A DNA stretch of 64,000 nt from Rhodoferax mekongensis (GTDB taxonomy: Bacteria > Pseudomonadota > Gammaproteobacteria > Burkholderiales > Burkholderiaceae_C): assembly GCF_032191775.1 (NCBI RefSeq), contig NZ_CP132507.1, positions 1,265,001 to 1,329,000 on the forward strand, read 5' to 3'. The position numbers and the translations under genes are program-made. This document shows, one piece after another, positions 9,506-55,094 of the stretch. The stretch's first letter is position 1, and each line of letters opens with the position of its first letter. The notes beneath the pieces are model-generated. The model did not search any database and was not told the DNA's origin. It was given only the letters and a program-made list of their open reading frames with translations.

Positions 9506-9720
9506 TGCTTGCGAGCCTCCAGCATTGCGTCGGCCATTTCGTAGCACCACTTAGCAGCCAAGCGAGGCGTCACCTCCTGATCATTGGTGCAGCTTGCGAC
9601 CAATCCAGACAACGCTTCACCGGCAAAGTAGTCGCGCAGGGTCATGCCATCCTCGCGTCCGTTCTGGCACCGGGAGTGCTCAGATGGGAATGCCGGTCCA
9701 CCTGTTTCTTTGTTGCTCAT
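9502..9720 (-). CDS. Conserved phage protein with GMTLRDYFAG motif
   Basis: A 72-residue protein of a type seen in many proteobacterial prophages: N-terminal TGGPAFPSE, central GMTLRDYFAGEAL and C-terminal AAKWCYEMADAMLEAR. The role is unknown. Coupled by 4-base overlaps. Confidence 0.72.
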   Translation of the reverse strand: MSNKETGGPAFPSEHSRCQNGREDGMTLRDYFAGEALSGLVASCTNDQEVTPRLAAKWCYEMADAMLEARKQ

Positions 9721-10064
9721 TCCCCACCACCTTTCCGGAAAGACTCTCGCAGCGCCTTCAGCTGCTCTTGATAGCGCAAACGGATAGCGGCTGTTGTCTC
9801 GTTGATCTCATCGTATTGCTTGATGCCAAGCGCATGAATGGCCTCAACCTCCTCGCGGGTGTCGGAGATGAATTGGCATGAGCTGATGTCGCAATACTGC
9901 TCACGCTTTTCACTCTCCAGATAGCGCTCCGGATCCTCGTACCACCGCACGTAGTAGACGCGAGACTTGCTGACGCGAGTGCAGCGCTTTGGGTGTCCGC
10001 CAAAGCCATTGATCAGGTATGTGCCAGTCGCAAACCACTGGCCGGGCTTGATTTCTTTGCTCAC
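9717..10064 (-). CDS. Hypothetical phage protein, 115 residues
   Basis: N-terminal half is beta-rich (GQWFATGTYLINGFGG, SRVYYVRWYED), C-terminal half a charged helix (IRLRYQEQLKALRESF). It could be a small DNA- or protein-binding adaptor. No family recognised. Confidence 0.6.
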   Translation of the reverse strand: MSKEIKPGQWFATGTYLINGFGGHPKRCTRVSKSRVYYVRWYEDPERYLESEKREQYCDISSCQFISDTREEVEAIHALGIKQYDEINETTAAIRLRYQEQLKALRESFRKGGGE

Positions 10065-11031: not shown

Positions 11032-11398
11032 GTGTTTTCCCTTCTGCTTTGGCGATAGCCGCGCGGATCATGTCGGCCACTTGCACTTGTCTTGAGTGTT
11101 TGCTTGCACCACTTTCACTTGCGCTGGTTTTCGGAACCATCCCGCAATCAACCGCCTGCTTCAAAGCCTCCAGCAGCTCAGGTGCGGCGGCTATCAGTCG
11201 GGCGTTTGCAGCATCGTTTCCGTTCTGCATAGGCTCTGCGTCCAATATCCATTCGGGCAAACTGAAAGTTGATTTTTTTGTTTCTGCGACCGTGCGCAAA
11301 GATGGCCGTCCATACCCATCCCACTCCACATCAAAATCAAACGGTTCATCTGTTTGCGAATTGACCCAATGCCACGGTGCTGGTGTGTGCTTGGTCAT
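11015..11398 (-). CDS. Phage accessory protein with NARLIAAAPELLEAL module
   Basis: A 127-residue protein starting MTKHTPAPWHW and containing GNDAANARLIAAAPELLEAL, a very common small module in temperate-phage early regions. It is related in form to the products of 10061-10762 and 8271-8684, so this operon carries several copies of the family. Function unknown. Confidence 0.72.
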   Translation of the reverse strand: MTKHTPAPWHWVNSQTDEPFDFDVEWDGYGRPSLRTVAETKKSTFSLPEWILDAEPMQNGNDAANARLIAAAPELLEALKQAVDCGMVPKTSASESGASKHSRQVQVADMIRAAIAKAEGKTHVTHL

Positions 11399-11679: not shown

Positions 11680-12542
11680 ACTGCTTCTTTCGTGAGTTCG
11701 ATGGTTGTGTAAACAGTCTGGCGATGCAGTGCGAGCACCGGCTCGATGCCACCCTTGGTGTCGCGCTGGTAGCCCCCGGCCAAGTTCCACACCAGAGGCA
11801 CCTTGCGGGTCAGGCAGGACTCGATCACCTGCTCATCGCGGTAGGCCATGTCGCGGGTGGTCAGGATGCCGCCCAGCGGGTCATCGACGTGGATGTCGGC
11901 GCCGGCTTGGTAGATCACCAGATCCGGCTTGCACTCCATCAGCAGGCCGTCGATCTGATCCAGCACCTTCAGGCATTCCGCACGGGTTTCGTAGCTGCGG
12001 TATGCGGTGATGTGGGTGATCCAGTCGAGGCCCAGACGATCAATGATGTCCTGAGTGCCGTTGCCATAGTGGGCATCGAAGTCGAGGATCAGCACGCGCT
12101 CTGCCAAGCCTTTGGCCTTGGCGTTCAGTGCGGCAGCGATCAGTCCGTTGAAGGTGCAGAATCCGCCGGCAAAGCCGTGGCCAGCATGGTGGAAGCCGGA
12201 GGTGGGGGAGATGGCCACGCCGCCGTGCTCCAGCACATGCTCAGTCGCAGCGATCAGGGATCCGGTGGTGTAGGGCAGGGACCGGGCCACGCCGTCACTT
12301 GTGTTGTCAAAGCCATTGGGCACTCGTCCGTCCAGCACGCCATCCACAAAGCCGGGTGCATGAGCTGCCTTCAGCTGCTCACGGGTCGCTGGTTCAAACG
12401 AGCGCACTTCGATGTGGGGATGGATGTCGGAGCGGGAGATCCAGTCGCTCACGGCCAGCAGGGGTTTGCCTGCAGACGGGGAGTAGGAGGCAGCATCCTT
12501 GCTGGATTGCTCGGTGCGGTAGAACACGGGGATTTTTTTCAT
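11676..12542 (-). CDS. Histone-deacetylase-fold amidohydrolase (acetylpolyamine/lysine deacetylase family)
   Basis: A 288-residue protein with the full active-site signature of the HDAC/acetylpolyamine amidohydrolase superfamily. It has the His pair H118-H119 (GFHHAGHG), zinc ligands D156 and H158 (LDFDAHYGNGT), D216 in AGADIHVDDPLGG, and the transition-state Tyr Y258 in LAGGYQRD. All catalytic positions are present, so an active zinc-dependent deacetylase is predicted. Bacterial relatives act on acetyl-lysine or acetylated polyamines. It is embedded in the leftward operon with 4-base overlaps on both sides, so it is part of the phage programme and not a host remnant. Substrate unknown. Confidence 0.88.
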   Translation of the reverse strand: MKKIPVFYRTEQSSKDAASYSPSAGKPLLAVSDWISRSDIHPHIEVRSFEPATREQLKAAHAPGFVDGVLDGRVPNGFDNTSDGVARSLPYTTGSLIAATEHVLEHGGVAISPTSGFHHAGHGFAGGFCTFNGLIAAALNAKAKGLAERVLILDFDAHYGNGTQDIIDRLGLDWITHITAYRSYETRAECLKVLDQIDGLLMECKPDLVIYQAGADIHVDDPLGGILTTRDMAYRDEQVIESCLTRKVPLVWNLAGGYQRDTKGGIEPVLALHRQTVYTTIELTKEAV

Positions 12543-24569: not shown

Positions 24570-25027
24570 GCGTCACCATCCAACGCGCAGTTGACCGCTT
24601 CCTGAGCTGGAAGCTGCCACTGGCATTCGCACCTGACTGCCACATCACCTTTGACCACGACAAAGCTCTGGGTGGCACATGGCCATCGGGCACCAACCTG
24701 CTCCACGCAGGTCAAGCCCGCGAGATGATCGAGCACCTACTGGGCGTTGAGCCTGGGCAGGAAACCGACTTCGGTTGCGCCCTGCTTGCCCTCAAGGCGG
24801 GCAAGCGCGTGGCTCGCAAGGGCTGGAATGGAGTTGGCATGTTTGTCTACTACGTCCCCCCAGCCTCCTACAAGGCACAGACCGGGGCTGCCAAAGAGCA
24901 CTTTGGCAACGAAGCCATGGTCCCATACAACGCCTACTTCGCAATCAAAAACGTCAACGAATCCGTGAGCACATGGGTTCCGAGCGTGAATGACTGCTTG
25001 GCGGAAGACTGGGTGGTGCTGGAATGA
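24566..25027 (+). CDS. Tad2-like anti-Thoeris (DUF2829) domain fused to a common phage domain
   Basis: A 153-residue two-domain protein. Residues 1-65 are a widespread phage module (RAVDRFLSWKLPL ... GTNLLHAGQAREMIEHLL). Residues about 68-153 match DUF2829/Tad2: DFGCALLALKAGKRVARKGWNG, MFVYYVPP, then MVPYNAYFAIKNV and the terminal WVPSVNDCLAEDWVVLE (each quoted in part). Tad2 proteins sequester the cyclic ADP-ribose signal of the Thoeris defence system in the cytoplasm. The fusion suggests an anti-defence protein adapted to this phage; activity is inferred. Confidence 0.78.
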   Translation: MSVTIQRAVDRFLSWKLPLAFAPDCHITFDHDKALGGTWPSGTNLLHAGQAREMIEHLLGVEPGQETDFGCALLALKAGKRVARKGWNGVGMFVYYVPPASYKAQTGAAKEHFGNEAMVPYNAYFAIKNVNESVSTWVPSVNDCLAEDWVVLE

Positions 25028-25332
25028 GAGCGGCCCTCCTGTCACTGGCCACAGTCGCAGCTCTGGGTGCCTCCTTGGCCCCAGCTACCTCTGGCTCGCA
25101 AGCGCAACGAGCGCAAACCGAGATCAACAAGCTGGCCAACGCCAGTGGTGGCCAGTCAGGAGGGCTCCCGGCCAACGCACCCACAGACACGCGCACCAAC
25201 ACCTTGCGCTCACGCTCACGGATTCGGCGCGACACCCGCATCAAGAAGGCGGGCCCGGGCTGGTCGAATCGGCACGTACAGCGCACAGCTGCCAAAGCCC
25301 GCAATGTGAAACGCTCGAAAGGCAAACGCTAA
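25024..25332 (+). CDS. Secreted or membrane-targeted basic protein, 102 residues
   Basis: N-terminal MRAALLSLATVAALGASLAPATSG reads like a signal peptide (in part), followed by a low-complexity, very basic region (RSRSRIRRDTRIKK ... NVKRSKGKR). 4-base overlap with the upstream gene. Function unknown; a DNA- or peptidoglycan-binding virion accessory is possible. Confidence 0.6.
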   Translation: MRAALLSLATVAALGASLAPATSGSQAQRAQTEINKLANASGGQSGGLPANAPTDTRTNTLRSRSRIRRDTRIKKAGPGWSNRHVQRTAAKARNVKRSKGKR

Positions 25333-25601
25333 TGGCTAAGTACCGCAAGAAGCCAGTAGTCGTAGAGGCATGGCAGCTCATTGAGGGCACCGTGATGCCT
25401 GACTGGATGCTTGAGGCTCGCCGCACCGGAGTGATTCAACCCTGTGAGGGTGGCGCCATCATCCGCACGCTTGAGGATGGTCCCAATGGAGAAGCCAAGC
25501 ACGTCGCATCCATGGGTGACTGGATCATCAAGGGCGTGAAGGGCGAACTGTATCCCTGCAAGCCGGAGATCTTTGCGCTGGCCTACGAGGTAGCAGAGTA
25601 A
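25332..25601 (+). CDS. Conserved phage protein, 89 residues
   Basis: A phage protein type found beside terminase genes: MAKYRKKPVVVEAWQLIEG at the N-terminus and GDWIIKGVKGELYPCKPEIF at the C-terminus (both in part). No experimentally known function that I can name. Overlaps neighbours at single bases. Confidence 0.8.
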   Translation: MAKYRKKPVVVEAWQLIEGTVMPDWMLEARRTGVIQPCEGGAIIRTLEDGPNGEAKHVASMGDWIIKGVKGELYPCKPEIFALAYEVAE

Positions 25602-41287: not shown

Positions 41288-41977
41288 ATGGCATCTGCAA
41301 TCCCCAATCCATTCGACACGCAACAGGCCGCAGCCACTACCGCAACGCAGGCCACTACGCCTACCGAGGCGAATCCTGCTCCTCAGATTGCGAGCACTCC
41401 CACCGCCACGCCGCAGGCCGTCAACGTGACGCCCGGCCAGATGGTCGAGGACCGCACCGCGAAGATCGTGGCTGAAGATAGCCCCATCATGCAGCTCGCG
41501 CGCAGCCGGGCGGAGCAGCAAGCCAACTCCCGTGGCCTGATCAACTCCACCATCGCGGCCGGCGCCGGCCAGACTGCGGTGCTCGATGCGGCCACCGGGA
41601 TCGCCAAGCAGGACGCAGCCACCGAGGCGAATGCGGCAACCGCCAACGCCAAGGCTGCCAACGACATGCAGCTGGCCAATCAGGATGCGCAGATCAAAAC
41701 CAATACTGCCAACTTGACAGCTGCCAGCAACACCAATCTGGCGAGCATTGAGGCGCAGTACAAGAACCTAACCACCGCATCTTCGTCGGCCGCGAGCATC
41801 ATCAACAAGACCACTGAAATGGTCAACTCGATCATGCAGAACACCACGCTCGATGCGGCTGCCAAGCAGAAGGCTATCGACACCTACAACGCAAACGCGA
41901 AGAAGTCACTGCAGCTGATTGGCGCTCTGGCTGGCGACGTGGATCTCAGCTCTTACCTTGATGAGGTGCTTGCGTAA
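41288..41977 (+). CDS. Internal virion / ejection protein, 229 residues
   Basis: Ala/Thr/Asn-rich with an extended N-terminus and long amphipathic helices (GAGQTAVLDAATGIAKQDAATEANAATANAKAAND in parts). Low complexity and position before the giant protein suggest a DNA-ejection protein like P22 gp7/gp20. No sequence proof. Confidence 0.65.
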   Translation: MASAIPNPFDTQQAAATTATQATTPTEANPAPQIASTPTATPQAVNVTPGQMVEDRTAKIVAEDSPIMQLARSRAEQQANSRGLINSTIAAGAGQTAVLDAATGIAKQDAATEANAATANAKAANDMQLANQDAQIKTNTANLTAASNTNLASIEAQYKNLTTASSSAASIINKTTEMVNSIMQNTTLDAAAKQKAIDTYNANAKKSLQLIGALAGDVDLSSYLDEVLA

Positions 41978-43230
41978 TGTCGGACGATTCCAGTGATTCC
42001 AGCGACTCCAGCTCAAGCTCAAGCAATTACAGCAACGAGGGCAGGAACTACACGCCGCCAAGTGGCGGCTTTTCCTCCAATGGGAGCTTTGCGTCTCAGT
42101 ACGCATCGTATGGATCAGGACGCGAGGCTGCCGAGAGGGCTGGTGGGTACGGGTATGGCAGTAGCTCAAGCTCAAGTGGCTACAGCAATGAGGGGCGAAG
42201 CAACTCATCTCAAGGCGGATCATCCGGGTCAAGCTCAAGTCGAGTTGCAGACTCTTATGGCGGAGAAAACAGGACAGTAGAGCAGCGCCAATCCGAAGAG
42301 GCGGAGGGTGGCATCAAATCCATTCTTGTCAACAACACCGGAAGAGTTCTTGGTCGCAACGGCTTGATCAATGCAGCGATTGCACAGCAGCATCAAGACT
42401 TTGTGAACGGCAAGTCCGGAGCTATTGGAGACGATCTCCGGGCGGCTTATGAAAGCCTTTCCGACGAGGACAAAAAGGCGTACCTGCTGGAGACGCACAA
42501 GCCAGTCAGTGATGTCTACACATACGACCCGCTGAACAAGGGGCTCCGAGAGAAGTGGACAGACATGACCACCGGCAAAGTGGGCAGCGCGTGGCGCACG
42601 CTTGGTGGCGTGGGTGGCGGCACAAGCTCTGATCAATACTTTGACAACGAGACTCCGGAAGAACGCGACGCAAGAGGAAGCCTGAATGGTTCGATCATCG
42701 GAAAAGTTGCAGATGCCTTGTCGCCAGCGCCTTTCTCCATTCTAAAGAATGGCGCGCAAATGGTCTACGAAATGAGCAAAGGAGTTCCCTTTAACGAAGC
42801 TGGTAGCAGGCTGGTTCCGGGGCTCATCAATCGTTTCGCAACGCCCGTATTAAACAGGGCTACTGGTGGCGCAGTAACAGCTTTCAACATCGGCAACGCA
42901 GCATCGGCAGCCTTCGGTGGTCCGAGCGTCAAGAGCATTGGCGATGCAGCTTGGAGTGCCGTTGGTGGCGGTCAACCAACGGGCCAAGAGACGGTGAACA
43001 ACCCCGACACAGGCAAGCCATACCTGTACCCAGACAGCACTCCTGTCTACAGGGGATCCAGTAGCAACTCATCGCCATCGGCTACATCCACTTCGGCACG
43101 ACAAGCACCGGCTGCCCCGGTAGTCCAAGGTCTTGATGTGGATGCAAACCTGTTTGGAAATCTTGATCAAAGCGGATGGCGCTCTGCAACATCCAAGTTA
43201 GCGCAGTCGCGCAAGAAAGGAACATCATGA
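41977..43230 (+). CDS. Virion protein with Ser-rich N-terminus and YSNEGR repeats
   Basis: A 417-residue protein. Residues 1-110 are Ser/Gly-rich, with two YSNEGR copies (NYSNEGRNY and GYSNEGRS). The rest is a more ordered helical region (RNGLINAAIAQQHQDFVNG; GVPFNEAGSRLVPGLINRF), ending in a Ser/Pro linker and GLDVDANLFG. Probably an ejected virion protein. Confidence 0.65.
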   Translation: MSDDSSDSSDSSSSSSNYSNEGRNYTPPSGGFSSNGSFASQYASYGSGREAAERAGGYGYGSSSSSSGYSNEGRSNSSQGGSSGSSSSRVADSYGGENRTVEQRQSEEAEGGIKSILVNNTGRVLGRNGLINAAIAQQHQDFVNGKSGAIGDDLRAAYESLSDEDKKAYLLETHKPVSDVYTYDPLNKGLREKWTDMTTGKVGSAWRTLGGVGGGTSSDQYFDNETPEERDARGSLNGSIIGKVADALSPAPFSILKNGAQMVYEMSKGVPFNEAGSRLVPGLINRFATPVLNRATGGAVTAFNIGNAASAAFGGPSVKSIGDAAWSAVGGGQPTGQETVNNPDTGKPYLYPDSTPVYRGSSSNSSPSATSTSARQAPAAPVVQGLDVDANLFGNLDQSGWRSATSKLAQSRKKGTS

Positions 43231-45296: not shown

Positions 45297-48200
45297 ATGC
45301 GCTTTGTACCAATCGATCAGGTTGCGGAACCAACTGAAGATAAGCAGCTCACGTTCCGCCCTATTGAGGCCACGGAACCGCAGCCGGCGAAGTCCTTTGC
45401 CGACAACATGGTCGATGCAAAGAACCAGATTCTTGATGGCTTGGCCGACAATGTGCTGCCCGGCAAGACCGGGCTGATCCTCGACGCCGTGCGCGGGCGC
45501 GTGAAGCCCCAGTCGGGCTCCGTGCTGGAAGGCGTGCAGCTCAAGGATCCGGGCTTCAATGCAGCCGAGGCAGAGCGTCTGTCGCGCCGCTCCTACGCAG
45601 AAGCCAACGACCCCGCAAACCCTGTCAACAAGGCGCCCGTGGTGCGCGCCGCAACCGACAGCCAAGCCATCCCAGAGAACGGCATCATGGCGTCCGCCGG
45701 CCGTCAGGTGGAATCCTTTGCTCGCTCCACTGCAGCCGGTGGCGCAAAGCTCCTGTCCGATGTGACCGGAGTAGCTGGCCCCAACTCCGTCTCTGACGCC
45801 TTGGATGCGTCTGCGCGCGGCAACTCGCGCATCGCTCGCAATCTCGACACTGGCACCGCCATGCGTACCGAGATCAATGCAGCAGATCCAACCCGCTCCG
45901 GGCTGCAGAATTTTGGCGACAAGTACCTGCCGCAGATCGTGGCTCAGGTTCCACAGCTGGCCATTGCCATCTCCACGGGCGGCATCACAGTTCCTGCCGT
46001 AATGCAGGGCTTGTCCTCGTACCAAGATGCCCGCGAGAAGGGCCTGTCCCCAGTGGATGCGGCCAAGTACGCAACCGCCATGGGCGGCTTCGAGGCATTG
46101 GGCGAGAAGGTGGGCGGCACCGGCAAGCTGGCTGATGCCTTCGAGAAAGCTCTGGCCAGCGGCTTCAGCAAGAATGCGGTCCGCGATCTGGGTGGCGCCG
46201 CAGTCTCCACCGGCCTGCGCGAGATCCCCTCCGAAGAGGCGACCTACGTTGGCCAAGTGGCCACGGACAACTACTTCGGCGTCAATCCTACAGACACCCT
46301 GCAAGAGTTTGGCCAAGGCGCCTTGGACACTGCGATTGTGTCTGCAGGTACTGGTGGCGCACTGGGCACCGCTGGTGCTGCCGCATCGCGTCTGGCAGGC
46401 TCTGGCCGGCAAACCATGTCGGCCGAGGAGCTGGCCAAGTCCAAGGGCTTCCTGCGCACATTCGCGGATCCAAGCGGCCCGGCATCTCAGGCAGGCATCA
46501 CCCCAGTCACCGTGGCCATCAAGCCAGCAGGAGCCCCAAGTGTCAGCACAACAGATAGTTCTGCAGGATTGGCTGCAGGCCCCGGTGTCAGCGGGGGTAA
46601 TTCCGGAATCCCAAGCGTGGGAGATACAGGACGTGTCGATGGAGCACTCGGAGGGGGAGTGGGTAATGCTGCCCAAGCACCTGCACCAAGCGTCAGCACT
46701 GATCCATCTGTTCCATCAGGAACCTCTGAACAAAATGCCGGTGTAGCCCCCACAGAGTCTGCGTCGGCAGCTATCAATCCTGTAGCAAACCCACTCAAGA
46801 AGACATCGGATTCCGACCTGTTGAGCAAGGTTCCACAGGAGCGCGAGCCAGCGCAGATCGTTCTGGGCGACGATGGCACCGGATACGCCACAGAGGATGA
46901 CGCCAAGCGTGTCGCCTCTGCGTACCAGCAGCGCAACAGCGACATCGAGTGGGCACCCGAGCGCCTTGACACTGGCCGATTCCGGGTGGCAGGATACGCG
47001 CCTCAAGGAGGCACCAATGTCCGAACAAGCACCACAAAGAACGCACTGCCTGACACCGCGACTGCAGGAGATCGAGGATCAAATGGAGTCGAAACTTCTC
47101 AGCCAAATGGGCGAGAAGGAGTACAGCCGGTATCTGCAGGAAAAGTCGCGCAGGATGAATCAAGAGATCTTGCCCGGCAAGAAGCAATCACCAGCCTGAA
47201 GCTGGATCGAGAGCAGTACCTATCTCAAGGCAAAACCGCGCAAGAGCGCCAGATCCTTGCGGAGCGTTGGCCAGAAGCAAAGCTGGATAACCCGGCGCCA
47301 GAGCTTGAGCCTCAGCTCAATGAGATCGCAAGCGGTATCTCTGAAGCCTACAGCGTAGACCGCAATCGCATCCAGTTCTACAGCGACAACAGCCCGGGCG
47401 CCGCCAACGGCTTCACCTATCGCGGCACCGCATGGGTCAACACTCGCGGCCTGAGCAGTGATGCAACCCAGACCGCCGGGCACGAAGGCCACCACATCCT
47501 TGAGCAGTTGGCCAAGGCTGATGATCAGGCCGGCAAGACCAACACACCCGCCCAGCGCTACGTCAAGAAGGTGTCCACCATCTTCGATGGCATGTCCGAC
47601 AAAGGTAAGAAGGCGTACATCGACAACTTCCTCTACAAAGAGGAGCTGGATGCCATCGAGAAAAAGGCTATCGCATCTGGCAAGACTGCTGCCGAGGCGC
47701 GCGTACTGCGTCAGCAAGAGGTCAACAAGCGCCTGAACACCAGCCTCACCAAGTCGGAGATGGTGGCCGACTTCGCGGGCAACCGCTTCAATGACAAGAA
47801 GTTTTTGGAGCAACTGGCCAAGGCAGATCCAAATGGATTCAAGTCTCTGGTGCAGCGCTGGATCAAGGTTCTCGATGACCTGATCGCAAGCCTGCGCGGC
47901 AACGGGAAGAACAAGGAGTCCAATGCGGTTGACTCCTATGTCACCAACCTGAAGAAGGCCCGACAGACTTTTGCCGAGGCGCTGATTGAGCTGAAGCAGG
48001 GCGGCGTGGATACTGGTGATGCAGCTACAAATTCTGTAGCAGAGCCAAGCAATCAGAATCGCCAAGGCGTGTATGCAGAGGTCGCACCGGATCCGCGCCG
48101 CAAGGTTCCCATGGCGGACACCATTGCCGACGAGTGGAATGACCTGTCCGCCGTGGATAAGGCCAAGACCACCAAAGAGGTGATGGACGCACTGTTTGCC

Positions 48201-51200
48201 AACGTGCAGCGCATGATGGGTCTGGATGGCTGGAACGCCGAGTACACCACCGGCATGTTCAAGGGTGGCGTGAACCCGAGCGTCTTCCTGTCCGCGCCAG
48301 AGGGCGTGGCTCCCGAGCAGCTGAATGAAGTGGCTCGCGTGATGGGCTACCTGCTTGATCAGATGGGCATGGTAGCGTTCGACGAAAACAACACCACATC
48401 CGACAGCCAGTTCTCCTTCGTAAAGGTGGTCTTGCCAGAGGGCATGAATCAGGAGAGAATTGACCAAGTTCGTTTAGCAATCGCTAAAGCGGTGCCCCAA
48501 GCCAATGGCGACAGCCTGCGCGAGGGCGCTCTGGTGTTTGGCAACTTCTCCGCCTATGACAGTGATGTCAAGACCCTGACCGATGAGCAGTTCAGGGATG
48601 CGATTTTCGATGTTGTCAACCAGATGCCAGAGGACTTCGAGGTCACTGCACCGAAGAAGTTTCACAGCGAATACATGCAGGGCAGCTGGGGTCCGGTCTA
48701 CAAGCCGACCAACCGCAACAAATACTTGGAAGGAACACGATATGCCAGCAATCAAGAGGGAACTGAAACCCGGGGAGACGATCTTCGGGGGCGGAGCGGG
48801 GGTGGCGACTTGGCGCAGCTACGACGCCTTGCGGAATCAACCGACAAAAAGCTCCGAAAGTACACCGACTACTACCGAGCAAACCCAACCCCAAGACCTA
48901 GCAGTGGAAATCTCGAAGGAGTGGGCAAGGCAGAACGGGAGTACGGCAGCGCCCGAGAAGGCGCAGTCTCCCGAGTCGGCGTCCACTTCAGCCAGCAGCG
49001 ACGCAACACCCTAAGCTCCGCCTTCCATGGCACCGGGCTCAAGGGTGCCGAGCGTGACCGCATGGCCATGCCGGGCGCCATCAAGGATCGTCTGTACTTC
49101 TACGTGGACAAGGGCACTGGCGTCGTTCCAGAGGCCGGCGTAGGCGGCGTCAAGCACACCATCAAGCTCAACAACCTGTACGACATCAACAAGGACGAGT
49201 ACGGCTTCAAGAAGGCTGCCAGCAACCCGGACCCACTGCAGTTCGCAAACAACTGGGAGCGCATGGTGCGCGATGCGGGATTCGATGGATGGACCGCAGA
49301 CAACGGCGGCAACCAAGCCTTCGCAGTCCTGCTTGGGAAGCACGACATCTCGATGTCTGCGCCATCCTTCCAGCGCCGCGAATCCATTGGAGACATCAAC
49401 AGTCTGGGCAACTTCAACCTCGATGTCTCCGATGTCTCCTTTGATGACTTTGATCTTGACTTCACCGACAAGATCGAGGCCAAAGAGATCTCCATGGAAG
49501 ACTTCATCAATGCCAAGACAGAAGGCATTGCCATGTCTGAGGCGGAGAAGCGGGCAGAGCTGCAGGCCGAGATTGCGCGCGAGGAGCAAATCCTCCGGAA
49601 CAGGCTTGCTGAACGCGCCAAGGCCGTCGCGCTGCCAAACCCTCGGGAGATCACTGCAGAGCAGATGCAGGAGCATGGCCTATTCCCAGAGAAGGCCATG
49701 CCATTCGGCAAGGACAGCGAGGATGAGAGCGGCTTTGTGAACATCGTGGTTCCTCGCACCTACGCTGATAGCGGCCAGCATGAGATTGAAGTGATCCCCA
49801 CCGGCAACGGATACCGTGGCCAAGTGGGATACGGCATCTCGTTTGTCGAGAGTCGAAACGCCATGAGCTACAGCGAGATCGTGCGCTTCACCAAGGCGCA
49901 GCTGGCAGCCCCACTGATTCACGATAGCGGATTCGACATCACATCCGCCTACCGCAAGGGAACCGCGCTCAAGATCGCTCAAAAGTGGAAAGAGCTTGCG
50001 AAAGCGAAGGGCGTTTTCTCCCTCCCCGGCAAGTCAGTCAACAAGCAGTTTGAGTATGTTGCGCGCGAGCTGAAGGCATTTGCCGGCTACACGGTTTCCA
50101 TGGATGTTTTTGGAGAGGGCTTCAACGTGAGCTTTCTCGACAAGTCAACCTCAAGGAGTTACGAGGCTCAGGTGGAGCTTCGTCGCGGGTACATGGAGTG
50201 CTGCACCATGAACCTTGCTGGATCCAAGGGCTTGGGCACTGAGTTCTACGCAGTCGCATCCGAGTGGGCGCGCGTCAACGGATACAAGTTCAAGTCCGCA
50301 GAAACACTCTCCTCTATCAACACAGCGCGCCGCACCGAGCAGGCACTCAGCTACTCCCTGAAGACTGGTGAAACCGGCATCATCATGCCCGGCTCGCAGA
50401 ACCGGGTGTATGGCTACAACGAGGATCCGAAGACCCAAGAGGATCACGACATGAACATCGCACGTCTGGCGCTGGCCAACATGCGAAACATGCTGGAGCT
50501 GGACCCAGATTTCTCTCGGCTGCGCTACGACCCGGAGACTGGTCGCTTCAGCCTGCAGGGCGGAAAGGATGGCGAGCCATGGGTCAAAGAGTTCTTGGCC
50601 AAGCAGGACGTGCGCGCCTACGGCGTTGGTCGCTCCACACTGGCACGTGCCGCGCTGACCAACCAGATCATCCGAGACGAGATCGACGTTGATGCCATCG
50701 AGCAGTTTGCAGTGCCCGTGGCGTACCAGAAGCGCGAGCGCGGCATGGAGTCCTCCCTGAGCGAAGGCTGGGGCGGAAAGGATGCAGTCAACCCCAACTT
50801 CGTGAAGTGGTTTGATGGATCCAAGGTGGTCGATGAAGATGGGTTGCCAAAGGTCATGTACCACGGCACCACCCGATCATTCGAGGAGTTCGCGCCGGGC
50901 ACCGGGTACTTCACCGCCATCCCTGATGAGGCCAATATGTACGGCGGCATGAACACTGCCGGCGCCAATGTTGTGCCCGCATTCCTGACCATTAAGAGCC
51001 CGCGAGTCATTGAGTCTGAGTCCATGCGCGGAACCCCGCGAGATGTGATTGCGGACGCGCTGAGTGACCGCGACATCGATGGCGTGATCGTCACCGAAGG
51101 CGGTAAGGTTCGCTGGGCTGTGCCTGTGGATCGCGGCCAAATCAAGTCTGTCTTCAACAGCGGCAGCTGGTCCGAGGAAGATCCACGCATCAGCTTCCAG

Positions 51201-54200
51201 AAGCGCGAGCCATCAAGCCCGCTTGAGAGCTACATCGACCAGCGCAACAAGAGCATGCCTCTTGTGTCTACGCAGAGTGCGCAGATGGCGGACATCGAGC
51301 TGGCAGTCAAGGCGATTGAGGCCGCAAGCGAAGACATTGCCTCCGGGTCGCGTGATGTGCTGCCAATTCCGATTGGTCGGGTGCCTCATGTTCTGACGAT
51401 GATGGGAGCCAGCTCACAAATGCTTCGCGTTGACTCCAGCATTGTCCGCAAGGTTTTCTTTGAGAAGCACTCAAAAGAGTTTCCAAACATCACGCCGCGA
51501 GATCTTGTGAATGCCATCTACAACCCTGCCATGGTGCTGCGCGCAGATGATCCAAATGAGTTTGAGCTTGTCTTGCCCATCACATCCGCACTGAAGGGCG
51601 TGGTGATCGTTCCAATCGTTCAGAGCAAACCAGTTGGCACTCCGTCCGTGGGTGGTAAGGTGGGTGTTAAATCATCTGCCATCAAGTCTATTTATGTGCG
51701 GCCAGTTGGAGGCGATGGAAACACCATTTTCAACCGTATCAAGAATGGTCGCGTCATGTATGCGGATCCTGCTCTGACGCAAATCGCTGTAACTGGTAGG
51801 GCAGAGGTGTCTGCAGCATCCGAGGGGATCGACAAAAGAGGGGCGCAATTCCCTGTTTCTCCCCCCTCGGCACAGCAGCTGGGTTCGAGCGCTCTCACGG
51901 GAGGCTCTGAAGATTCTGGTCGGACCAGCCGGATCAACGAATGGGAGGCACGATTCTCCGATGCTCCCCGGTTGGCTGGACCGGCTTTCAATGTAGCAAA
52001 TGCTGAACTTGCTGTCAAGCCCCTCAATCCAAATTTTGTTGGCTGGGATCGGGTGCGCCCCATCATCATGGGTGGAATTTCCGAGCGCAAGATCAAGTCT
52101 GACGTGGATCTGCTCAAGTGGATAGGCAACCGCTACGACCCCGCATCCTCGCCTGACGGATGGGCTGATGCGCCCGCATTCCAGAAGCGAGAAGGCGAGA
52201 AGGTCTACACCCATGAGGTGATCGACCCCCGCGATGGCAACAAGGTGGTGGGTAAGTACCAGAGCGCGGAAGCTGCTCGCCGTGGACGTGACCGACTTGA
52301 CAACCAGTACGGTGGCTATCGCTACCGTGTGCGCAAAATCGAAGATGGCCTGCCCATGCTTCAGGCGCGTCAGATCCAGCGCGCCAAGGGTCTTGAGGAT
52401 GAGACGTGGTTCGAGCGCCAGCGCCGCCGCTTCCAAGACCAGTTCATCCAGATCCGCAACCTGCAGGACACCCTGCTGGCCAACGGCGGAACGGTGAACG
52501 AGGAGCAGGATGTGTATGGCGCCGAGGAGCGCATGCACGGCCGCACTCAGGAGCTGCTGACAGATTTCGCCAACAACCAGATCGAGCCCTTCATCAAGAA
52601 GGCTGCCTCGATGAAGGTGGGCTTGGATGAGATCTCCCTGTACGCATACGCCAAACATGCCGAGGAGCGCAACCAGCACATCGACAGCATCAACCCAAAG
52701 CTCAATGGCGAAGGCTCCGGCATGTCCAACGTCGAAGCGCAGAACATCATCCAGATGGTGAAGTTGGCCGGCGACGAAGCCAAGTTTGAGGAGCTGCACA
52801 AGGATCTCATGGGCATCACCTCGACCACGCGCCGGGTGCTGCTGGATGAGGGTCTGATCACTCAGGACGAGTACGATGGCTGGGAGAACCTGTACGAGAA
52901 TTACGTTCCCCTGCGCGGCTTCGAGCAAGTCGATGAAGATGGCGCCAAGACAGGCATGCTTCGCGTAGGCCGTGGCTTCAGCACCACCGGCAAGGAATCC
53001 ATCAAGGCGCTGGGCCGCAAGTCCAAGGCTGGAGAGATCATCGAAAACATCATCCGCGACTACGAGCGCGCGGTGATCCGCAGTGAGCGCAATCAGGTTT
53101 CCAAGACCTTCCTCGATCTGGCGCTGAACAACCCTGATCCGGATCTGTGGGAAGTGCAACCCACCAAGCGCACCCCCGCCTTCGACAAGAAGCGCGGACT
53201 GGTTCTGATGCGCTCCTCGCGCGACACAGGCGAGGACACCATCAACATCAAGGTGGCCGGCCAAGACGTGCGCGTGAAGATCCATGACCCGCTGATCCTG
53301 CGCGCCATGAAGCTGGCAGCCAAGGATGAAACGAGCCAGCTGGAGCGCATTCTGGCTGCAACGCTTGGCACCTACACCACCCTGATGCGCAACACACTCA
53401 CCCGCTACAACCCAATCTTCGGGGCGCTCAATGCGGTGCGTGATGCGCAAATGGGCGCCGTGTCTGCCTACGATGCACTGGGCGCTAAGGGCGCGGCCCT
53501 GTACGCCAAGTACCTCGGCCCATCTCTGGCGGCCTCCTTCCGCAAGGAGCGCGGCAAGCCAGACCCTGCGAACAAGGTGATGGACAAGTGGATCATGGAA
53601 ATGCGCTTTGCCGGCGGAACCACTGGCGGCTACTACCTGCGCGACACCAGTGAGATCACCGAAACCATGCGCGACATGATGCTGGCTGCCGGCGCCGCGC
53701 CCAAGGGAATCAAGGAGTCCTTGCGCGCATCCAAGGCGTATCAAGCTGGCTCCATTGCGCTTCGCTGGCTGGAGATCATTGGATCCACATCTGAAGACGC
53801 AGCCCGGGCAGCCGCATACCGCGCGGCCCGCGAGGTCGGCAAGACCCCGGCAGAGGCAGCCAGCATCGCCAAGAACCTGACCACCAACTTCAACCGCAAG
53901 GGCGAGTGGGGTGGCACCTTGAACCAGCTGTTCCTGTTCTTTAATGCCGGCGTGCAGGGCTCCGCCCGAATCCTTCAGGCGCTTGGCAACCGCCGGGTCC
54001 AGTACATGATGGCAGGCGCCACTGCTGCCGCCATGACACTGGCCCTGATGAATGCAGGCATGGGCGATGACGATGACGGCGAAGCCTACTGGGACAAAAT
54101 CCCAGACTTTGAGAAAGAGCGCAACCTGATCTTCATGCTGCCACCCGGCGTGGAGATGGATGGTTCGCACGTGGTCGGCAAGAATGGTCGCTACGTGAAG

Positions 54201-55094
54201 ATCCCCATGGCCTACGGCATCAACGTGTTCGCCGTGCTTGGCAACGCGCTGGCGGACTCCGCTCGATGGGCCAAGGACCGCAACCGTGGCGCGAGTCCGG
54301 CCAAGTCTGGTGTGCGCCTGACCTCCGCTGTGTTCGGATCCATCAACCCATTCGGCGGATCTCTGGATCCAACGGATCCGATCCAGCTGTCCATGGCAGC
54401 CGCCCCCACGGCCATCGACTTTGCGATCCAGATGGGCGCCGGGGTGAATGCCTTTGGTCGCCCGGTGGGGCCAGAGAAGTCGCCGTTTGATGAAAAGCCA
54501 GACAGCGAGAACTTCTCCGCACGTCAGGCCGGAACCGCATCGCAGCACGTGGCGCGCTGGCTCAACTCCGTGACAGGCGGAAATCAGGCTCGCTCCGGCG
54601 CCATCGACGTGATGCCGGGCACGCTGGACAATCTGGTGCGCAACGCAACCGGCGGTCTGGGTGTGTTCTTGGCTGACACCTTCGTCAACCTGCCGACAAA
54701 GGTGATGTCCCCCATCGAGACAACCACCCGCGACATTCCGCTGGCCCGCAACTTCTACGGCCAGATCGATGACATCACCGAGATGGGCCTGTTCTACGAG
54801 CGCCGGGCAGAGGTTACGAAAGAGCTGAAGGCAGCCGAGGCGGAGATGAAGGCCGGCATCGAGGTGGACTACACCGAAGAGCAGATGGCCAAGCTCTCAC
54901 TGGCCAAGGCAGCTGAGTCCTACACCAAGTTCTACGCGAAGCTGAAGAAGCGCGAGATCGAGATTGCCGAGGACGAAAGCATGACCCGGGCCGAGAAGAT
55001 GGTCGCTCGCAAGGAGATCGAAAAGCAGCGCGGGGATCTGGCCCGGGCCTTCAATGAAACCTACGTGGGGCAGATGCGCGACGTGAAGAAGTGA
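45297..55094 (+). CDS. Giant polyvalent virion protein, 3,265 residues
   Basis: One uninterrupted frame of 9.8 kb. Recognisable regions: about 640-900 with a zincin motif H729-E-G-H-H733; about 1240-1355, ADP-ribosyltransferase-like (FHGTGLKG); about 1620-1680, acetyltransferase-like; 1838-1965, ART-PolyVal-like (WFDGSKVV, YHGTT with H1856); about 2010-2150, MuF-C-like (IPIGRVPHVLTMMGA); about 2690-2990, LPD38-like (NPIFGALNAVRDAQ ... FNRKGEWGGTLNQLFLFF, in part). The motif FQ(K/R)RE occurs at 1358, 1967 and 2295 and YQKRE at 1810, between regions. Such proteins are packaged and injected. Low-complexity linkers carry nested ORFs. Codon use is uniform with the neighbours. Confidence 0.85.
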   Translation: MRFVPIDQVAEPTEDKQLTFRPIEATEPQPAKSFADNMVDAKNQILDGLADNVLPGKTGLILDAVRGRVKPQSGSVLEGVQLKDPGFNAAEAERLSRRSYAEANDPANPVNKAPVVRAATDSQAIPENGIMASAGRQVESFARSTAAGGAKLLSDVTGVAGPNSVSDALDASARGNSRIARNLDTGTAMRTEINAADPTRSGLQNFGDKYLPQIVAQVPQLAIAISTGGITVPAVMQGLSSYQDAREKGLSPVDAAKYATAMGGFEALGEKVGGTGKLADAFEKALASGFSKNAVRDLGGAAVSTGLREIPSEEATYVGQVATDNYFGVNPTDTLQEFGQGALDTAIVSAGTGGALGTAGAAASRLAGSGRQTMSAEELAKSKGFLRTFADPSGPASQAGITPVTVAIKPAGAPSVSTTDSSAGLAAGPGVSGGNSGIPSVGDTGRVDGALGGGVGNAAQAPAPSVSTDPSVPSGTSEQNAGVAPTESASAAINPVANPLKKTSDSDLLSKVPQEREPAQIVLGDDGTGYATEDDAKRVASAYQQRNSDIEWAPERLDTGRFRVAGYAPQGGTNVRTSTTKNALPDTATAGDRGSNGVETSQPNGREGVQPVSAGKVAQDESRDLARQEAITSLKLDREQYLSQGKTAQERQILAERWPEAKLDNPAPELEPQLNEIASGISEAYSVDRNRIQFYSDNSPGAANGFTYRGTAWVNTRGLSSDATQTAGHEGHHILEQLAKADDQAGKTNTPAQRYVKKVSTIFDGMSDKGKKAYIDNFLYKEELDAIEKKAIASGKTAAEARVLRQQEVNKRLNTSLTKSEMVADFAGNRFNDKKFLEQLAKADPNGFKSLVQRWIKVLDDLIASLRGNGKNKESNAVDSYVTNLKKARQTFAEALIELKQGGVDTGDAATNSVAEPSNQNRQGVYAEVAPDPRRKVPMADTIADEWNDLSAVDKAKTTKEVMDALFANVQRMMGLDGWNAEYTTGMFKGGVNPSVFLSAPEGVAPEQLNEVARVMGYLLDQMGMVAFDENNTTSDSQFSFVKVVLPEGMNQERIDQVRLAIAKAVPQANGDSLREGALVFGNFSAYDSDVKTLTDEQFRDAIFDVVNQMPEDFEVTAPKKFHSEYMQGSWGPVYKPTNRNKYLEGTRYASNQEGTETRGDDLRGRSGGGDLAQLRRLAESTDKKLRKYTDYYRANPTPRPSSGNLEGVGKAEREYGSAREGAVSRVGVHFSQQRRNTLSSAFHGTGLKGAERDRMAMPGAIKDRLYFYVDKGTGVVPEAGVGGVKHTIKLNNLYDINKDEYGFKKAASNPDPLQFANNWERMVRDAGFDGWTADNGGNQAFAVLLGKHDISMSAPSFQRRESIGDINSLGNFNLDVSDVSFDDFDLDFTDKIEAKEISMEDFINAKTEGIAMSEAEKRAELQAEIAREEQILRNRLAERAKAVALPNPREITAEQMQEHGLFPEKAMPFGKDSEDESGFVNIVVPRTYADSGQHEIEVIPTGNGYRGQVGYGISFVESRNAMSYSEIVRFTKAQLAAPLIHDSGFDITSAYRKGTALKIAQKWKELAKAKGVFSLPGKSVNKQFEYVARELKAFAGYTVSMDVFGEGFNVSFLDKSTSRSYEAQVELRRGYMECCTMNLAGSKGLGTEFYAVASEWARVNGYKFKSAETLSSINTARRTEQALSYSLKTGETGIIMPGSQNRVYGYNEDPKTQEDHDMNIARLALANMRNMLELDPDFSRLRYDPETGRFSLQGGKDGEPWVKEFLAKQDVRAYGVGRSTLARAALTNQIIRDEIDVDAIEQFAVPVAYQKRERGMESSLSEGWGGKDAVNPNFVKWFDGSKVVDEDGLPKVMYHGTTRSFEEFAPGTGYFTAIPDEANMYGGMNTAGANVVPAFLTIKSPRVIESESMRGTPRDVIADALSDRDIDGVIVTEGGKVRWAVPVDRGQIKSVFNSGSWSEEDPRISFQKREPSSPLESYIDQRNKSMPLVSTQSAQMADIELAVKAIEAASEDIASGSRDVLPIPIGRVPHVLTMMGASSQMLRVDSSIVRKVFFEKHSKEFPNITPRDLVNAIYNPAMVLRADDPNEFELVLPITSALKGVVIVPIVQSKPVGTPSVGGKVGVKSSAIKSIYVRPVGGDGNTIFNRIKNGRVMYADPALTQIAVTGRAEVSAASEGIDKRGAQFPVSPPSAQQLGSSALTGGSEDSGRTSRINEWEARFSDAPRLAGPAFNVANAELAVKPLNPNFVGWDRVRPIIMGGISERKIKSDVDLLKWIGNRYDPASSPDGWADAPAFQKREGEKVYTHEVIDPRDGNKVVGKYQSAEAARRGRDRLDNQYGGYRYRVRKIEDGLPMLQARQIQRAKGLEDETWFERQRRRFQDQFIQIRNLQDTLLANGGTVNEEQDVYGAEERMHGRTQELLTDFANNQIEPFIKKAASMKVGLDEISLYAYAKHAEERNQHIDSINPKLNGEGSGMSNVEAQNIIQMVKLAGDEAKFEELHKDLMGITSTTRRVLLDEGLITQDEYDGWENLYENYVPLRGFEQVDEDGAKTGMLRVGRGFSTTGKESIKALGRKSKAGEIIENIIRDYERAVIRSERNQVSKTFLDLALNNPDPDLWEVQPTKRTPAFDKKRGLVLMRSSRDTGEDTINIKVAGQDVRVKIHDPLILRAMKLAAKDETSQLERILAATLGTYTTLMRNTLTRYNPIFGALNAVRDAQMGAVSAYDALGAKGAALYAKYLGPSLAASFRKERGKPDPANKVMDKWIMEMRFAGGTTGGYYLRDTSEITETMRDMMLAAGAAPKGIKESLRASKAYQAGSIALRWLEIIGSTSEDAARAAAYRAAREVGKTPAEAASIAKNLTTNFNRKGEWGGTLNQLFLFFNAGVQGSARILQALGNRRVQYMMAGATAAAMTLALMNAGMGDDDDGEAYWDKIPDFEKERNLIFMLPPGVEMDGSHVVGKNGRYVKIPMAYGINVFAVLGNALADSARWAKDRNRGASPAKSGVRLTSAVFGSINPFGGSLDPTDPIQLSMAAAPTAIDFAIQMGAGVNAFGRPVGPEKSPFDEKPDSENFSARQAGTASQHVARWLNSVTGGNQARSGAIDVMPGTLDNLVRNATGGLGVFLADTFVNLPTKVMSPIETTTRDIPLARNFYGQIDDITEMGLFYERRAEVTKELKAAEAEMKAGIEVDYTEEQMAKLSLAKAAESYTKFYAKLKKREIEIAEDESMTRAEKMVARKEIEKQRGDLARAFNETYVGQMRDVKK
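46540..46746 (+). CDS. Nested +1-frame ORF 1 in the polyvalent gene
   Basis: A 68-codon frame starting with GTG six bases after AGGAG. The product (VSAQQIVLQDWLQAPVSAG, then WVMLPKHLHQASALIHLF) has a normal globular composition, whereas the polyvalent frame across it (residues 415-483) is low-complexity Gly/Ser/Ala/Pro. This suggests overprinting. Unproven. Confidence 0.4.
   Translation: MSAQQIVLQDWLQAPVSAGVIPESQAWEIQDVSMEHSEGEWVMLPKHLHQASALIHLFHQEPLNKMPV
47017..47199 (+). CDS. Nested +1-frame ORF 2 in the polyvalent gene
   Basis: A 60-residue frame with a near-perfect CAAGGAGG six bases before ATG. The product is helical (LTPRLQEIEDQMESKLLSQM, then EKEYSRYLQEKSRRM). The polyvalent frame here (574-634) is a Thr/Asp/Gly/Ser-rich linker just before the metalloprotease-like region. 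Confidence 0.5.
   Translation: MSEQAPQRTHCLTPRLQEIEDQMESKLLSQMGEKEYSRYLQEKSRRMNQEILPGKKQSPA
48742..49014 (+). CDS. Nested +1-frame ORF 3 in the polyvalent gene
   Basis: A 90-residue frame starting with ATG nine bases after GGAAGGA. The front (MPAIKRELKPGETIFGGGAG, VATWRSYDALRN) looks folded, the rest is Ser/Thr/Ala-rich. It covers polyvalent residues 1149-1239, directly before the first ART-like region. Confidence 0.45.
   Translation: MPAIKRELKPGETIFGGGAGVATWRSYDALRNQPTKSSESTPTTTEQTQPQDLAVEISKEWARQNGSTAAPEKAQSPESASTSASSDATP

Follow-up and report, generated by a model that had tools for sequence, protein, structure and literature searches.

Can the DNA behind a floppy linker of a giant phage protein also carry genes of its own? 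The question is raised by a 64,000-nucleotide stretch of Rhodoferax mekongensis DNA (contig NZ_CP132507.1, positions 1,265,001 to 1,329,000 of the forward strand; hereafter the window, in whose own numbering positions are given), part of a 3.89-Mb bacterial genome. The window holds a prophage with genes for terminase, head-tail adaptor, and major head protein, and a giant gene at 45297–55094 whose 3265-residue product was characterized by translation, Pfam, and PHROGs. This product matches phrog_14770 (E 1.7e-131) and, as a phage protein of more than 2000 residues with the Pfam domains LPD37, LPD38, and ART-PolyVal, belongs to the polyvalent proteins (Iyer 2017, PMC5512222); its family makes it likely to be an injected virion protein. 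An earlier note, made from the sequence alone, had pointed to three open reading frames (ORFs) in the +1 frame of this gene as overprinted small proteins. We find it very probable that the three are genuine coding genes overprinted in the +1 frame and that they belong to a wider set of such genes, found in linkers of phage polyvalent genes. The case is strong for ORF 1 and weaker for ORFs 2 and 3.

Translation, frame, and stop codons confirm the three ORFs and their common +1 phase relative to the giant gene (the host frame); like all the domains of that gene described here, they lie on the plus strand. ORF 1 (46540–46746) starts with GTG and encodes 68 residues with a net charge of -6, whereas ORF 2 (47017–47199) and ORF 3 (48742–49014) start with ATG and encode 60 and 90 residues. 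Each follows a Shine-Dalgarno (SD) sequence: the region GCAGGAG at 46527–46533, in which AGGAG ends 6 nt before the GTG of ORF 1; AAGGAGG at 47005–47011, 5 nt before the ATG of ORF 2; and GGAAGGA at 48728–48734, 7 nt before the ATG of ORF 3. The SD sites had thus been recognized correctly, at a spacing that is 5–7 nt rather than the 6–9 nt first given. The placement of the ORFs over low-complexity linker does not wholly hold for ORF 3, where the host frame encodes a conserved helical stretch and the C-terminal part of the ORF overlaps the start of the first ART-like domain. No signal peptide or lipobox was seen by eye in the three products (no signal-peptide program was run), and nothing significant was found for them in Pfam and PHROGs (best E 0.021).

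One alternative is chance: high-GC linkers rich in Ala, Gly, Ser, and Thr would give rise to long +1 reading frames, and to purine runs resembling SD sites, that have no function. Openness itself is unremarkable, as this alternative expects, because the +1 frame stayed open in 812, 1326, and 1184 of 2000 synonymous shuffles (41–66%) at ORFs 1, 2, and 3. Codon content speaks against it. The +1 codon log-likelihood ratio (LLR) is -3.3, 10.5, and -3.7 against shuffle means of -36.4, -44.9, and -46.8 (z = 4.4, 6.9, and 4.6), and not one of 2000 synonymous shuffles matched the observed value at any of the three ORFs. For ORFs 1 and 3, the codon signal stands out against what the host protein permits and is not high in absolute terms; chance can claim their slightly negative LLR. 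Across 322 sliding windows of the giant gene, the +1 frame equals or exceeds the main frame at the three ORF sites only (in one window for ORF 1). GC content at main-frame third codon positions (GC3, 150-base windows) falls to 0.32–0.54 over ORFs 1 and 2 and 0.56–0.68 over ORF 3, against 0.71 for the whole gene. A fourth low-GC3 linker (51537–51957) served as an internal control and shows no +1 signal; on this ground, general codon slack in linkers was rejected as an explanation. SD-preceded ATG or GTG ORFs of at least 50 codons number six in the +1 frame of the giant gene, where 1.4 were expected (maximum 5 in 1000 shuffles), and one in the +2 frame, where 0.2 were expected (P 0.21). The six comprise the three ORFs (ORF 2 counted from 46909) and others at 45559, 49510, and 52282 in which the codon signal is absent, a point that again favors chance.

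The relatives of the giant gene tell more. They were collected by a protein search with residues 480–1260, which gave the query and 80 polyvalent homologues among the 7988 best-word candidates that were scored, and their DNA came from viral contigs (33 loci from one search, others added), bacterial genomes, and phage records. Where the window has ORF 1, several relatives have a +1 product of 67–69 residues that aligns with ORF 1 from end to end, the host-frame linkers differing. We call this family N1. Its alignment covers nine DNA loci at full length, and ORF 1 is 27–37% identical to the other eight rows. The N1 profile retrieved 47 proteins among 5.8 billion (E 1.6e-28 to 3.5e-10), 44 of them 67–69 residues long and the remaining three 46, 49, and 60 residues. 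The consensus reads MSAqqa..L...Lq.aV..ga.SlaEAW..QDl....p, pg...elP..lepm..rl.Ll, and e..P.N.LPa; ORF 1 matches the profile over its full length, lies in the 67–69-residue range, begins with MSA, and carries the EAWxxQD core as QAWEIQD and the P.N.LP end as PLNKMPV. One of the proteins (P0089) is 97% identical to ORF 1. It and P0005, 98% identical to ORF 2, each come from a 17,950-base contig, probably the same one. Of the 47 proteins, 40 occur on no contig that reaches 5 kb, a length that leaves no room for the giant gene by which they would be masked. The other seven are on contigs of 9–63 kb, and two of these seven recur nested among our loci (P0086 in L034, L086, and L087; P0124 in L082).

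Wherever its DNA context was examined, N1 is nested in the +1 frame of a longer ORF. These contexts include known phages: the profile matches Vibrio phage VvAW1 (E 5e-11), Thalassomonas phage BA3 (5e-9), and Vibrio phage FGH (3e-7), as well as genomes G219 (4e-7) and G661 (2e-5), and N1 is +1-nested in all five. Searched directly against phage records at E<=10, ORF 1 matched VvAW1 only (two records, E 3), a match supported by its frame, its position, and the profile E value, and another N1 member matched six Mycobacterium or Gordonia records at E 7–10. VvAW1 (L093) also has a second nested +1 ORF at 9604–9831 (LLR 15.3, 75 residues), within a DarB-like gene. AlphaFold2, given ORF 1 with the N1 alignment, predicts three helices (residues 10–17, 23–35, and 46–60) with a predicted local distance difference test score (pLDDT) of 82.9 and a predicted template-modelling score (pTM) of 0.67. 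The best match of this fold in BFVD is A8HNW3, of 110 residues (E 0.028, template-modelling score 0.73), which, from its equal length, is probably BA3_0004. The depositors of BA3 (NC_009990) annotated BA3_0003 and BA3_0004 inside the giant BA3_0002 as unnamed hypothetical proteins. The C-terminal 63 residues of BA3_0004 are an N1 member, and in our reading its annotated start lies 47 codons too far upstream. Unlike BA3_0004, BA3_0003 (L094, 5036–5380; +1-nested, TTG start, hydrophobic product) is probably a false gene call.

Is the nested frame under selection, and is the host frame still used? Selection on a nested gene should move the differences between close relatives away from host position 3, which is nested position 2, and towards host position 1, the nested wobble. 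Between L024 and L027, the 68 codons of the N1 region differ 14, 2, and 0 times at host positions 1, 2, and 3, against 145, 86, and 548 times in the remaining 2281 codons (Fisher p 5e-9). The four nested genes compared between L018 and L034, one of which kept 12 codons after poorly aligned stretches were dropped, give 17/6/10 against 252/171/771 elsewhere (p 1e-4). The share of host-position-3 differences is lower inside nested genes (N1, N3, N4, N5, N6) in eight of eight close pairs, with Fisher p<0.05 in seven and p 0.14 in L021/L022; the pairs share members and so are not independent, the intervals were picked after detection, and poorly aligned stretches were dropped. Phages FGH and BA3 show the same shift (17/12/14 against 564/362/1340, p 8e-4), with identity of 45/63 in the nested frame and 37/63 in the host frame. 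Among seven N1 loci the BLOSUM score is higher in the nested than in the host frame in 21 of 21 pairs, on a nested-frame alignment that favors the nested frame. With the substitutions flipped in phase in close pairs of relatives, and with a family conserved in sequence, fixed in its start, and nearly fixed in length behind ORF 1, chance is largely refuted for N1, N3, and N4 as far as these comparisons of sequence reach, and as an account of the three ORFs it is barely credible.

The host frame is constrained as well. When the nested codons were resampled with the nested protein kept, the host frame remained open with a probability of 0.001–0.54 per gene. It is open in 29 of 29 nested genes, at a joint probability of about 1e-35; a scan of long ORFs had supplied some of the 29, and the nine N1 genes, at about 1e-11, therefore give the fairer figure. 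This openness bears on a disguised operon, in which the domains would be separate genes with small genes between them and the host frame over the linkers would be open by accident and untranslated. Nested starts do sit where a separate upstream gene would finish, and the polyvalent protein is split over two ORFs in L020, L021, L022, L023, L035, and L046; in L020, L021, and L035, where this was measured, the first ORF stops 47–63 codons past the nested N4 gene and another ORF fills the gap. Host frames open by accident would have to recur at the joint probabilities just given, and we regard an operon as very unlikely. Programmed +1 frameshifting into the nested frame, which would give truncated polyvalent proteins with alternative tails, would explain why the products all share one frame. 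SD sites, however, precede the nested starts, and the N1 alignments open with the initiator Met, in the MSA motif; on this evidence from the starts, frameshifting is hardly tenable. The open host frame, together with the nested-frame substitution pattern, indicates that both frames are in use: there is purifying selection on the nested frame in the relatives and constraint on the host frame. Computation establishes dual coding and the families for N1 (with ORF 1), N3, and N4; for window ORFs 2 and 3 themselves, the evidence of dual coding is their codon content. That the nested products are translated we infer from the SD sites and starts. The proposal of overprinted small proteins is thus supported by codon content, the substitution pattern in relatives, family conservation, the SD sites and starts, and the foldable ORF 1 product.

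Window ORF 2 follows a small host-frame domain (GTGYxT...WKVE...FRVAGY; 46881–47003, approximate limits). Its relative P0005 was annotated as a gene on a different contig and has a single difference, Leu28Arg, which, judging from the codons, can be a host-synonymous wobble change. Two recurrent families, N4 and N7, are defined by an AQQPNLDQ...LARSK or LSPxKR core 3' of a TSQDYAGA domain. ORF 2 follows the FRVAGY domain instead and clusters with neither. At or near the ORF 2 site, L034, L070, and L024 have a basic (L)KPLKPSKxKRK-like +1 peptide with a TTG or GTG start (at 10815 in L034, 3255 in L070, and 10650 in L024), which also occurs in L072 (8215). ORF 3 starts, as N3 genes do, 3' of a host-frame domain that we name VAPDP (48078–48740, approximate limits). 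N3 is further defined by an MP..(E)xxFGxG N-terminus, and the N-terminal part of ORF 3 has a weak likeness to it (MP...E.IFGGG). The host protein retains residues that suit the nested starts: at the ORF 3 start, 19 of the 20 homologues shown have Tyr followed by a residue with a G-initial codon (A, G, D, or E), which, judged from protein, would make the ATG of ORF 3 possible. ORFs 2 and 3 matched no phage record at E<=10, and ORF 3 and P0013 found no relative among viral contigs.

Nested genes are not confined to these sites. The recurrent families besides N1 are N3 (MPVRPMTDEEAERYFGNGLVIFGQK...), N4 (AQQPNLDQ...LARSK), and the smaller groups N5, N6, and N7; by clustering, the families are diverse and mutually unrelated. 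A scan of ORFs of at least 1000 residues in the window and loci L014–L047 and L070–L085, near-duplicate contigs counted, found 33 nested +1 ORFs with an LLR of at least 10, where synonymous shuffles predict 0.0, and three +2 ORFs, where 0.6 were expected. The +2 cases (L029, L030, L047) all come from a single related stretch, close to where stop-to-stop ORFs begin, and were judged not to be nested genes. Of the three window ORFs, ORF 2 alone exceeds this cut, from an upstream TTG at 46966. A six-frame hidden Markov model search of the loci gave 20 N1 rows (from 14 contigs, with one window ORF split over three rows), 16 N4 rows, and 10 N3 rows, model-building sequences included, and all are +1-nested in a longer ORF apart from a single N4 fragment that lies at the edge of its contig. 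An SD core of at least four bases precedes all 34 curated nested starts, assessed by eye and with some starts chosen using the SD. Pfam and PHROGs gave nothing significant for nested family members, and one member each of N1, N4, and N3 had no match at E<=1 among 50,697 phage records.

Several observations weigh against the conclusion that the three ORFs and their kin are genuine genes. N1 is not universal: among 11 loci whose DNA includes the upstream N-terminal domain, N1 is present in six, and five (L016, L021, L022, L023, L046) gave no match. The earlier note had looked to +1 stops or lost ribosome-binding sites in relatives; so far as this was checked, in the relatives that match N1, N3, or N4, the +1 genes are open and SD-started. 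The N1 profile is also unmatched in Limnohabitans phage DC33, and N1 occurs in BA3 and FGH without raised codon likelihood. The GTG start of ORF 1 differs from the ATG of the other eight curated N1 starts, and the N1 fold had no match in the PDB at E<=0.001. The LLR of ORFs 1 and 3 lies under the cut of 10. For ORF 2 the protein search yielded a single relative, at 98% identity, so that its conservation could be judged hardly at all. ORF 3 is only 10–32% identical to the other N3 rows, a weak likeness set beside its N3-like position, and its structure model is poor (pLDDT 56, pTM 0.19). DC33 itself (L014, PQ492659) has two nested +1 candidates, at 11069–11284 and 11918–12106; it is classed in Inoviridae, yet has 39 kb with a polyvalent gene and an endolysin, and its taxonomy line looks wrong.

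With which part of the giant protein do the small genes go? In the curated set, N4 has the same preceding domain in seven of seven cases, and the following region is of two kinds (four and three cases). For genes at the N3 position, the VAPDP domain precedes in seven of seven; ART comes next in five, LPD37 in one (L044), and a different region in the remaining one (L020). ORF 3, L016, and L020 are in this set by position, and some members are near-identical (L018 and L034). N3 and N4 are thus observed to be linked to the domain that precedes them, and this linkage suggests to us that nested genes go with their preceding domain. The earlier note had suggested possible inhibitors or chaperones of the neighbouring domains, taken here as the domains that follow, and ORFs 2 and 3 do directly precede the metalloprotease-like and ART-like domains. 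N3, however, precedes ART in L018, L034, and L070 but LPD37 in L044, and the ART cluster is itself preceded by N3, ORF 3, L016, N5, and two unrelated nested genes (nine cases in total). That N3 and N4 keep the preceding domain as the next region varies argues against inhibitors of the downstream ART, and we consider the proposal unlikely. Linkage to the preceding domain has its own exceptions: N1 does not discriminate, with both neighbors the same in eight of nine cases, and the three N7 genes have no linked upstream neighbor.

In another reading, the nested genes are unrelated accessory genes, for host takeover or counter-defence, placed in linkers as the only parts that tolerate overprinting, their linkage to the preceding domain merely reflecting where the ribosome-binding site lies. 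It would account for the diversity of the families and for N7. Acidic charge is common among small phage inhibitors, and the mean net charge of N1 is -6.5 (44 proteins). On the other side, no free-standing N1, N3, or N4 copy was found in the loci searched, most of them obtained through the giant gene, which makes the missing copies weaker evidence than appears. Searches begun from nested proteins (four loci; four loci; three of 399 genomes, the window's own included), a fairer test, also gave N1 and N3 matches that were nested only, and the other low-GC3 linker of the window carries no nested gene. We take the accessory reading to be a serious possibility, somewhat short of an even chance.

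For the nested genes as partners of their upstream domains, we propose the following. Ribosomes would initiate internally at the SD sites in the giant mRNA, and small and giant proteins would be made from one message. In the +1 phase, nested position 2 coincides with the host wobble and the nested wobble with host position 1; by this geometry the nested protein could stay specific and foldable as the host drifts into a linker rich in Ala, Gly, Ser, Thr, and Pro. The last codons of the upstream domain carry the ribosome-binding site of the small gene, and each small protein may be a chaperone-, immunity-, or assembly-type partner of that domain, a function that we put forward tentatively, from gene order and sequence. 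In toxin-immunity pairs, the small gene begins at the end of the coding sequence of the domain and travels with it; the linkage of N3 and N4 is alike, with the difference that here the small gene is overprinted and not 3' of the stop. It is conceivable, and we hold it with equal reserve, that polyvalent genes are two-layer cassettes, each a domain followed by linker DNA that encodes its small partner in the +1 frame. Domain and partner would then move as one recombination unit, and the linkers of the giant protein would largely be the shadow of hidden partner genes.

Other nested and overprinted genes offer comparisons. Rz1 lies in the +1 frame of Rz, and phiX174 is an example of overprinted viral genes. 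Like the Rz/Rz1 spanins (PMC5295617, PMC6139136), the small genes described here are phage genes nested in another gene with their own start. Spanins are membrane proteins or lipoproteins of lysis, whereas here several unrelated families occupy the linkers of one giant virion-type protein, and no lipoprotein signal of the Rz1 kind was seen by eye in the three products. With overprinted viral genes in general (PMC8227390), they share the dual coding of one DNA stretch; here, in difference, the nested genes are recurrent, serial, and in some cases linked to particular domains of a modular protein. The olg1 and olg2 genes of Pseudomonas phage Fc02 (PMC9936078) are small overlapping phage genes that annotation had missed, and one of them has exclusion activity. 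Their overlap with other genes is in a regulatory region, on its reverse strand, and not inside a polyvalent gene. Genes inside polyvalent genes go unmentioned in the available parts of the account of polyvalent proteins (PMC5512222), and likewise in those of the papers on VvAW1 (PMC3558961), a Shewanella podophage (PMC9011153), and Fc02. No earlier description was found among the matches listed in the open literature, and a prior report is possible.

The remaining features of the giant gene and of the window can be given briefly. In the host frame, the metalloprotease-like domain has its HEGHH motif at 47481–47495, with H729, E730, and H733 invariant in nine aligned sequences. The first ART-like region (VHFSQQRR...HGTGLKGAE; residues 1215–1300 as search query) lies at 48939–49196, and Pfam places LPD37 (PF18853) at 49986–50678, ART-PolyVal (PF18760) at 50832–51026, and LPD38 (PF18857) at 54090–54740. 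Main polyvalent ORFs of relatives include a zeta-toxin domain (L018) and inorganic pyrophosphatase and RadC domains (L025). Elsewhere in the window, the first part of the ORF 24990–25601 includes, at 25024–25332, a +1 frame that scores strongly as coding (LLR 30); PHROG matches of that ORF span residues 109–203 only, which puts its true start probably near 25300, and 25024–25332 is probably a separate, signal-peptide-like gene. A +1 ORF at 42143–42280 (also from a GTG at 41993; LLR 12.8) lies in the Ser-rich start of the gene 41977–43230, and its signal is probably compositional, from serine repeats.

Standard annotation programs, as described in PMC8665328, disallow long overlaps at the same locus, and this rule leaves a set of conserved phage proteins largely invisible. 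For phage polyvalent genes, the finding suggests that the DNA of floppy linkers also codes for small proteins that gene finders usually miss, at the same places in some related phages. It gives polyvalent-protein linkers a concrete origin, offers a natural example of a small frame conserved better than the frame that hosts it, and supplies candidate partner proteins for phage polyvalent domains that are directly testable.

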